Origin: Roseococcus sp.
Lineage (GTDB): Bacteria > Pseudomonadota > Alphaproteobacteria > Acetobacterales > Acetobacteraceae
DNA length: 64,000 nucleotides
Direction: 5' to 3'
Assembly (NCBI GenBank): GCA_026414745.1
Contig: JAOAIK010000037.1
Location: 1 to 64,000, forward strand
The position numbers and the translations under genes were made by a program. Below are positions 18,087 to 62,876 of the stretch, piece after piece. Position 1 is the stretch's first letter. Every line of letters starts with the position of its first letter. Below the pieces are notes generated by a model that was not told where the DNA came from, searched no databases, and worked only from the letters and a program-made list of their open reading frames with translations.

Positions 18087-18884
18087 TCAGGCGTTGCCAG
18101 GCTTGGGCGGCCGCGGCGTGATCCAGGAGGCGAAGAGGATCGAGATCTCGTAGAGCAGGATCAGCGGCAGCGCCAAACCCACCTGGCTGATCACGTCGGG
18201 CGGCGTGATGATGGCCGCCAGCACGAACATGCCCACGATGGCGTAGCGCCGCCCCTTCTTCAGCGTCTCCACGCTCAGGATGCCGACGCGGCAGAGGAGC
18301 ACCAGCGCCACCGGCATCTGGAAGGCAAGCCCGAAGGCGAGGATCATGTGCATGACCAGCGAGAGATACTCGCTCACCTTCGCCTCGAGCTGGATGGGCA
18401 CGGTGCCGCCGCCGGTCGGCGTCTCGAAGCTGATGAAGAAGTGCCAGGCCAGCGGGAAGATGAAGTAGTAGGCGAGCGCCGCGCCGAAGAGGAACAGCAC
18501 GGGCGAGGCGATGAGGAAGGGCATGATCGCCCGCTTCTCGCTGCGGTAGAGGCCGGGGGCGATGAACAGCCAGGCCTGGGTGGCCCACATCGGGAAGCTG
18601 AAGAACACAGCCCCGAAGAAGGCCACCTTCAGGTAGGTGAAGAAGGCCTCGTAGAGGGCCGTGAAGATCATGCGCCGGTCCCCGCCCCCCTGGGCCATCA
18701 GGATGTCGGCCAGCGGCGCGGCGAGGAAGCCGTAGATCTGCGCCGAGAAATAGTAGCACACGCCGAACATCACCGCGAAGGTGCCCACGGACCAGAGGAG
18801 CCGCTGGCGCAGCTCCATCAGGTGCTCGATGAGCGGCATGGGCTTGTCGTCGATCGGGTCGTCGTCGCGCGCGGTGTTGGACAC
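18087..18884 (-). CDS. tatC: Sec-independent protein translocase TatC
   Basis: MPLIEHLMELRQRLLWSV and multiple TM segments. Confidence 0.96.
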   Translation of the reverse strand: MSNTARDDDPIDDKPMPLIEHLMELRQRLLWSVGTFAVMFGVCYYFSAQIYGFLAAPLADILMAQGGGDRRMIFTALYEAFFTYLKVAFFGAVFFSFPMWATQAWLFIAPGLYRSEKRAIMPFLIASPVLFLFGAALAYYFIFPLAWHFFISFETPTGGGTVPIQLEAKVSEYLSLVMHMILAFGLAFQMPVALVLLCRVGILSVETLKKGRRYAIVGMFVLAAIITPPDVISQVGLALPLILLYEISILFASWITPRPPKPGNA

Positions 18885-32400: not shown

Positions 32401-32491
32401 GGAAAAGAAAGGGCCACTCCCGCGAGGGAGCGGCCCAAGTTTAGGGAGGAAACGCCAGTCACACGGCAGAAAGAGGAACATCCTCTCTCTG
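32401..32491 (-). ncRNA. Putative anti-Shine-Dalgarno small RNA, copy 1
   Basis: Minus strand: hairpin 32491-32467 (10 bp, one G-U), 13 nt, GTTTCCTCCCTAAAC at 32453-32439, 2 nt, terminator hairpin 32436-32411 (one G-U) followed by TTTCTTTT. 5' end not determined. Confidence 0.65.
32411..32436 (-). terminator. Intrinsic terminator of putative sRNA copy 1
   Basis: GGGCCGCTCCC-TCGC-GGGAGTGGCCC followed by TTTCTTTT on minus strand. Confidence 0.75.
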
Positions 32492-32589
32492 ACCGCACAG
32501 TGCCGCAAAGGGCGGGGCTCGCTCAATGGCGAAACGCTCCGTCAGACGGTGAAAATCCCGGCGAAAACCGCGGGAATGACTAGAAACAA

Positions 32590-38390: not shown

Positions 38391-39353
38391 TCAGTCGGCC
38401 GTGATGTTCGCCTCGCGCACCACGCTGGTCCAGAGGGCGCGGTCCTCGCGGATCATCCGGTCCACCTCCGCCCCCGGCGCGAAGCGCGGGAAGGTGCCGA
38501 GCCCGACCAGCACGCGCGGCAGGTCGGTGTTCTCGAAGATCCAGCGCAGGCTGTCCTCCAGTCGCTGGCGCACCGCGGCCGGGGTGGCGGCGGGGGCGAC
38601 GATCGCCTGCCAGCTGGTGAACACCCAGTCGAGCCCCTGTTCCTTGACCGTCGGCACATCGGGAAGCTGAGGGTGGCGCTCGGCGGAGGTGATGGCGATC
38701 ACGCGCACGCGCCCGCCCTCGTGCGCGCCGCGCATCAGGGAGTAGCCGTCCAGCATCATCTGGATGCGGCCCCCGAGCAGATCCTGCAGCGCCGGGGCGG
38801 AGCCGCGATAGGGCACATGCACGATGTCCACACCCGCCTGACGCTTCCACACCTCGAAGGCGAGATGCGGCACGCCGCCCGAGCCGCCGGAGCCGAAGTT
38901 CAGCGCGCCGGGCCGCGCCCGCGCCGCCGCGACCAGGTCGGCGAGGCTGCGGATCGGGCTGTCGGCATTCACCGCGAAGACGAGCGGGCCGAGGGTGAGC
39001 TGCCCCACCGCGCGGAAATCGCGCGAGGTGTCGAAGGGAAGATTGGGGAAGAGCGCGTGGGTCATGGCGAGGTTGCCCACATTCCCCTGGAACAGCGTGG
39101 TGCCGTCGGGCGGGGATTTCGCCACATGGTCCATGGCGATGTTGCCGTTGTTGCCGGGCCGGTTGTCGATCACGACGGGCTGGCCGAGCCGCTCGGCCCA
39201 GCGCTGGGCCACGGGCCGCGCGATGGAATCCACCCCGCCCCCGGCCGGGAAGCCGACAACGAGGCGAATGGCCCCCGACTGGGCCCGGGCCAGCCCTGGT
39301 GCGGCGAGCAGCAGCGCGGAGGCGCCGAAGGCGGCGCGGCGGCGGATGGGCAT
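38391..39353 (-). CDS. Bug family tripartite tricarboxylate transporter substrate-binding protein
   Basis: IRLVVGFPAGGGVDSIARPVAQRWAERLGQPVVIDNRPGNNGNIAMDHVAKSPPDG. Confidence 0.93.
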   Translation of the reverse strand: MPIRRRAAFGASALLLAAPGLARAQSGAIRLVVGFPAGGGVDSIARPVAQRWAERLGQPVVIDNRPGNNGNIAMDHVAKSPPDGTTLFQGNVGNLAMTHALFPNLPFDTSRDFRAVGQLTLGPLVFAVNADSPIRSLADLVAAARARPGALNFGSGGSGGVPHLAFEVWKRQAGVDIVHVPYRGSAPALQDLLGGRIQMMLDGYSLMRGAHEGGRVRVIAITSAERHPQLPDVPTVKEQGLDWVFTSWQAIVAPAATPAAVRQRLEDSLRWIFENTDLPRVLVGLGTFPRFAPGAEVDRMIREDRALWTSVVREANITAD

Positions 39354-39356
39354 GGT

Positions 39357-39367
39357 GTTTCCTCCCT
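39357..39367 (-). promoter_or_regulatory. Ribosome-binding leader of Bug gene; putative sRNA target site
   Basis: mRNA AGGGAGGAAAC (then ACCATG) is exact complement of GTTTCCTCCCT in both putative sRNAs. Confidence 0.5.
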
Positions 39368-62337: not shown

Positions 62338-62790
62338 TGCGCATGGCGGCCGCCCTCGCGCCGGTCATGCTCCCTGTTCCCGCCCCCGGCCGTGGCGTGG
62401 CCGAGCCGGGCCAAGGGGCGGCCCGGCGAATCGGGGCGGCGCGATCGGGGCGGCGCGCGCTCTTCGCCTCGCGCGATCTCGGCATCGCATGGCCGCGGCC
62501 ACGGACGGAGGCTTCGGCGCCCATCTGATCCGCGCCATTCCCGGCCGCCATGCCGAGCCGCAGGGACGGCTGCGCGCGCTCGCCGTGCCGATGGCCAGAG
62601 GGGTGACGAGCCGGGCGCGATCCGACGCCGAGGAGATCGGCGAGGTGCGGCTGACGGCCGGCAGCGCGGCGCCGCAACGGCCCCCCGGCCGTCATCGGGA
62701 ACTGGCGCATGCGAGAGATCTGCCCCTGCCGAGATCGCCTCCCCCGAAACCGTTCGTTGCGCCGCCTGCCCCGGCCCCCTGAGGGCGGGG

Positions 62791-62820
62791 AAAAAAAAGG
62801 CGGTGCGTCGCCGCACCGCC
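62791..62820 (-). terminator. Intrinsic terminator of putative sRNA copy 2
   Basis: Perfect 9-bp GC-rich stem followed by eight T on minus strand. Confidence 0.85.
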
Positions 62821-62876
62821 GAGTTTAGGGAGGAAACGTCCAAGAAAGCGGGCAGGAACCGGAATCCCTGCCGCCC
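62791..62876 (-). ncRNA. Putative anti-Shine-Dalgarno small RNA, copy 2
   Basis: Minus strand: hairpin 62872-62851 (one G-U), 13 nt, GTTTCCTCCCTAAAC at 62837-62823, 2 nt, terminator GGCGGTGCG-GCGA-CGCACCGCC + T8. 5' end inferred from promoter-like CTTGCG-N17-CTAGAA. Confidence 0.7.

Follow-up and report, generated by a model that had tools for sequence, protein, structure and literature searches.

What does the minus strand between plsC and proS encode in this Roseococcus genome, and how might its product act? An earlier note on the window, by which we mean the whole 64,000-nucleotide stretch of DNA analysed here, had proposed a trans-acting sRNA of the anti-Shine-Dalgarno (anti-SD) class. 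We found support for that class in a family score above the Rfam cut-off, in covariation and in candidate target sites, while the exposed loop in which the anti-SD motif had been placed did not hold.

Results

Family and position of the sRNA gene

The predicted gene occupies 32403..32492 on the minus strand, would give a transcript some 88-90 nt long, the ends being approximate, and is flanked by plsC (Acyltransferase, PF01553) and by proS (PF00587, PF03129), with which it shares its direction. Read 5' to 3' on the minus strand, the locus consists of a promoter-like pair, a 5' hairpin, GCCGUGUGACUGGC, GUUUCCUCCCUAAAC, a terminator stem and TTTCTTTT.

The cmscan against Rfam that the earlier note had suggested returned a family: RF00519 (suhB/MmgR) matches 32474-32397 with 48.8 bits against a curated gathering cut-off of 41, over the full length of the model (1-77) and with E = 2.6e-9 for the 320-nt stretch searched. 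RF00519, named suhB in Rfam, is the alpha-r8 (MmgR) family. Over the whole window, three matches exceeded the curated cut-offs, namely one tRNA and two RF00519 genes. At the sRNA locus itself no other Rfam family passed its cut-off, those of AbcR and NfeR1 included, the next-best minus-strand match being SorY with 16.7 against a cut-off of 111.

These scores bear directly on the families with which the RNA had previously been compared, since a mechanistic likeness to AbcR/ar15 and ar14 had been named, with no claim of homology. The actual homology is to a third family, alpha-r8 (MmgR, SisA-D; RF00519). That the RNA nevertheless belongs to AbcR/alpha-r15 or alpha-r14 (NfeR1) would fit the shared CU-rich anti-SD motif and terminator, as well as the partial homology of AbcR RNAs to suhB (PMC7143759); but only RF00519 passes its cut-off, and the single unpaired anti-SD motif found here compares with two in AbcR and three in NfeR1. 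We rejected this assignment on the Rfam scores and the motif count, and hold it to be extremely improbable.

An N-formylglutamate amidohydrolase (FGase) gene is a frequent neighbour of alpha-r8 genes, though not a required one; in Caulobacter, one of the four siblings, sisA, has it (PMC12559287). In the present genome the FGase gene lies at C45:18844-19530, and no RF00519 match was found on that contig. Because sisA is the only one of the four Caulobacter siblings with such a neighbour, its absence does not exclude alpha-r8 membership. The genome also carries an hfq gene. Taken together, we are highly confident that the sRNA is a member of the alpha-r8 family acting by an anti-SD mechanism.

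Orthologues at proS

An RF00519 match above the cut-off was present in 43 of the 60 genomes searched (this one and its relatives). Among the 36 Acetobacteraceae genomes searched, 27, the own genome included, have a proS-linked orthologue; G014 and G026 have a copy of the proS-linked type, with ProS outside the fetched stretch. Across the proS-linked orthologues a 34-nt core, TGCCGTGTGACTGGCGTTTCCTCCCTAAACTTGG, is nearly invariant. The named genomes that carry it in the vicinity of proS are Neoroseomonas alba, Caldovatus aquaticus, Rhodovarius lipocyclicus, Belnapia mucosa and Siccirubricoccus phaeus; the proS loci of Acetobacter and Gluconacetobacter did not yield it. The own ProS is at most 79% identical to the ProS proteins of the named genomes.

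Folding and covariation

The minus strand folds with -46.7 kcal/mol, compared with -29.3 +/- 3.2 for shuffled sequences (z -5.4; none of 200 shuffles as good). The structure had been described as strand-specific. Its minus-strand G-U pairs indeed correspond to A-C on the plus strand, whose fold is weaker (-41.7). The 5' hairpin of 10-11 bp (32467..32491, minus strand) and the intrinsic terminator (32403..32436, minus strand), with its 11-bp stem at 32436-32411 and its TTTCTTTT tail at 32410-32403 directly after the seed region, are both present as previously claimed.

The three helices of the earlier note were then counted over 27 distinct proS-linked sequences for pairs that show, at least once, a change on both sides. 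Such changes occur in 5 of the 11 pairs of the 5' hairpin, in which 93.3% of cells are paired, and in 6 of the 11 terminator pairs. The covariation score was 0.219 against 0.144 +/- 0.010 for shuffles, none of 500 reaching 0.219. Registers slid along the alignment are the better control, because shuffles ignore the kinship of the sequences, and every slid register scores worse than the claimed one. Compensatory changes in related genomes, the absence of which had been named as grounds against an sRNA, were thus found in both the 5' hairpin and the terminator. The hairpin is particular to the proS-linked subtype, where it probably protects the 5' end.

The segment between hairpin and seed had been described as a 13-nt linker. 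It holds the weak GCCG/UGGC pairing of the family (32454..32467, minus strand), which appears in the Rfam alignment and in the consensus fold. Its probability is about zero in the ensemble of this copy alone, and its pairs never vary, hence they are invisible to covariation.

A single-stranded seed

The heptamer CCTCCCT is located at 32449-32443, as previously reported. It belongs to a seed, UUUCCUCCCU (32443..32452, minus strand), that is letter for letter the published alpha-r8 10-mer (PMC12559287), and whose mean unpaired probability is 0.79. The published description (PMC12559287) recognises the family by its terminator and by 5'-UUUCCUCCCU-3', single-stranded and placed below a weak hairpin.

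On the other hand, we did not recover the GUUU-CCUCCCU-AAAC stem-loop that was thought to present the heptamer. It is in neither the minimum-energy nor the centroid fold. The probability of its pairs averages 0.09 here and 0.10 across 29 copies, never exceeding 0.25. Over the 27 distinct sequences, three of its pairs are invariant and the fourth is broken in two orthologues, leaving no covariation; in the consensus fold the stem is replaced by GCCG/UGGC upstream of the seed. Because of these findings we rejected the 4-bp stem and dropped the loop; a single-stranded seed, as in SisA, is the best reading. The invariance of the seed is accounted for by its pairing role and offers no argument for a stem.

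A second copy and the cis-acting alternative

A second alpha-r8 sRNA gene, copy 2 of the earlier note, lies at 62784..62860 on the minus strand and scores 53 bits with RF00519, above the cut-off. Analysis of the neighbours shows that the two copies of the window form two separate orthologous groups, the second group adjoining a lytic transglycosylase and/or glutathione-transferase gene. The window member of that group has both as neighbours, and these are conserved. The second copy also has a conserved upstream block of its own, CTTGC followed by CTA about 20 nt on.

The existence of this second group matters for an alternative in which the RNA would act in cis on proS, as a leader or attenuator, given that its terminator lies on the same strand, some 230 nt upstream of where proS probably starts. 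Such a leader would be in keeping with a linkage kept in 27 genomes and with the common direction of sRNA and proS. However, the same layout of seed and terminator occurs at unrelated places without proS, copy 2 among them, the Caulobacter members of the family act in trans, the RF00519 match lies anywhere between about 110 and 360 nt from the ProS match among orthologues, and the fold showed no alternative with an anti-terminator. We therefore consider a proS leader very unlikely and retain the trans-acting sRNA.

Two further kinds of locus were observed. At L118 2029-2099 (minus strand; G000:C39:14528-14598), a weak RF00519 match of 31 bits contains a different conserved stretch, GACAGCTTTGCCTTCCTCAACCTTGCCTTGG, followed by a terminator. 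This stretch also occurs in five genomes of the same genus (L128, L137, L149, L152 and L166), and loci of this type may represent a separate sRNA family with a seed of its own. At locus L120 (G000:C37:41152-41226, minus strand), a sub-threshold match of 21 bits contains the complement of GGGAGGAAAC; it could be a third alpha-r8 paralogue, as could L148, L158, L161 and L172 in relatives.

A promoter-like pair upstream of the sRNA

Five nucleotides before the 5' hairpin we noted a promoter-like pair, TTGAGC (32526-32521) and CACTGT (32502-32497), separated by 18 nt (32497..32526, minus strand). A similar pair (T[TG]GNNN, 17-18 nt, [CT]ANNNT) is found in 25 of 29 orthologues, a count that carries no significance because the motif was picked by eye, after the fact, from the comparison of orthologues. 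A scan of the region upstream of the sRNA with a generic sigma-70 consensus found no promoter.

Candidate targets among TctC genes

Within the window, the perfect 10-nt complement of the seed, AGGGAGGAAA, occurs at 39358..39367 (minus strand), with 4 nt between it and the ATG of a gene for a TctC (Bug) solute-binding protein (38391..39353, minus strand; PF03401, 209 bits), which makes the two a predicted target site and target gene. In the 3.2-Mb assembly AGGGAGGAAA occurs five times: two occurrences lie in the sRNA genes, and the other three each precede an ATG by 3-5 nt. The backwards control pattern has no occurrence. The three sites outside the sRNA genes are C16:39358-39367, which is the window site, C6:18346, just before a TctC match at 18499, and C17:33839, at a protein that by appearance resembles an alpha/beta hydrolase. 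Hence two of the three stand at the start of TctC (Bug) genes, of which there are 103 in this genome and at least 150 in G035 of the same family.

For a broader comparison, 1,091 genes were called with a simple codon-model caller on 1.23 Mb. With stretches chosen to cover TctC genes and gene starts chosen partly by SD strength, GGAGGAAAC was found in the start regions of 4/89 TctC genes and 2/987 other genes (p 6e-4), and GGAGGA in 42% and 8%, respectively. Duplexes with the seed region had a mean energy of -17.7 for TctC genes (n=89) and -13.8 for the others (n=987; p 6e-13), the TctC paralogues being not fully independent of each other and most of them less than 60% identical.

Since the seed overlaps a generic anti-SD sequence, it should be complementary to strong SDs even where no regulation takes place. 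The TctC signal might accordingly be a by-product of strong SDs, with the true partners being a few other mRNAs or another sRNA, in the manner of CrfA, which sponges SisA in Caulobacter (PMC12559287). The SDs of TctC genes are indeed stronger than those of other genes (anti-SD energy -10.1 vs -8.4, p 4e-7). Against this, an excess of -2.6 kcal/mol survives stratification by anti-SD energy (permutation p 2e-4). Moreover, when the flanks of the seed were shuffled and UCCUCCC was kept, pairing with TctC genes became weaker in 100/100 shuffled seeds, none being as good, and pairing with other genes in 75/100. The flank test points in the same direction in relatives and is weaker there, with 3/300 shuffled seeds doing as well in G010 (the nearest), 11/300 in G035 and 22/300, a marginal specificity, in G004. 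Weighing both sides, we give the by-product explanation slightly less than an even chance, and view a TctC regulon of this sRNA, as suggested by the sites and pairing energies, as a tentative proposal that we would not yet favour.

Regarding the wider family, G028 and G033, the two genomes of high completeness that lack any RF00519 match, also have no TctC gene, two cases being too few for statistics; G057, a genome without alpha-r8, has one TctC gene. Our literature search returned nothing usable on TctC as an sRNA target.

Discussion

The comparative evidence from sequence gives the locus good support as a genuine sRNA gene. It adds a member to a family that is already known, as is the way in which that family acts. 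The orthologue is well defined and placed at a conserved site in Acetobacteraceae. Our literature search found no work on the alpha-r8 family in Acetobacteraceae and nothing usable on sRNAs in Acetobacteraceae. The interest of the locus lies in a conserved proS-linked subtype with a covarying 5' hairpin, and in a testable TctC lead.

In Caulobacter, the seed of SisA pairs upstream of the start codon and, with Hfq, represses mRNAs, as proven by compensatory mutations (PMC12559287). We infer that this mechanism carries over to the present sRNA, a transfer supported by the identical seed, the hfq gene and the target sites. A trans-acting RNA of about 88-90 nt would have its own minus-strand promoter in the gap between plsC and proS, stop at the intrinsic terminator and bind Hfq at its U-rich 3' end. 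The single-stranded UUUCCUCCCU, together with the preceding GGCG, would then pair with ribosome-binding sites that have the form AGGGAGGAAACGCC-AUG, which would block 30S loading and lead to mRNA decay. The sRNA would most likely shut off the translation of nutrient-uptake genes via their ribosome-binding sites. Its main targets would most likely be some of the numerous TctC (Bug) genes and a few genes of carbon metabolism, and in this way it may help to set which substrates the cell takes up.

In Roseomonas-like Acetobacteraceae, alpha-r8 sRNAs could by now be broad repressors of an expanded TctC repertoire, many of whose start sites would have been kept complementary to the seed, an idea that we put forward with some doubt. 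The TctC/Bug uptake proteins offer a concrete, testable candidate regulon and thereby a route to the role of the widely conserved alpha-r8 sRNAs outside Caulobacter and rhizobia.

How does this sRNA compare with known systems? The CU-rich anti-SD motifs are held in common with AbcR (alpha-r15) and NfeR1 (alpha-r14), whose targets are largely transport proteins (PMC7143759). AbcR RNAs are defined by three stem-loops and two unpaired CU-rich anti-SD motifs, NfeR1 by three hairpins with an anti-SD motif in each loop (PMC7143759). The present sRNA has one unpaired motif where AbcR has two, and, unlike NfeR1 with its motifs in hairpin loops, carries it in the linker between two stable hairpins.

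MmgR of Sinorhizobium meliloti (RF00519, suhB) belongs to the same family, above the cut-off, and shares the anti-SD motif and the U-rich terminator tail. It is 77 nt long, compared with the predicted 88-90 nt or so here, and it has a link to polyhydroxybutyrate that is without support for the present sRNA.

SisA-SisD of Caulobacter crescentus (PMC12559287) have exactly the same 10-nt seed, UUUCCUCCCU, and an intrinsic terminator. As here, there is more than one sibling per genome, the upstream sequences are unrelated and action is predicted at ribosome-binding sites. Our sRNA differs from them in its covarying 10-11 bp 5' hairpin, in its linkage to proS rather than, as for sisA, to the N-formylglutamate amidohydrolase gene, and in its predicted targets, which are TctC solute-binding proteins here and TonB-dependent receptors for many of the SisA targets.
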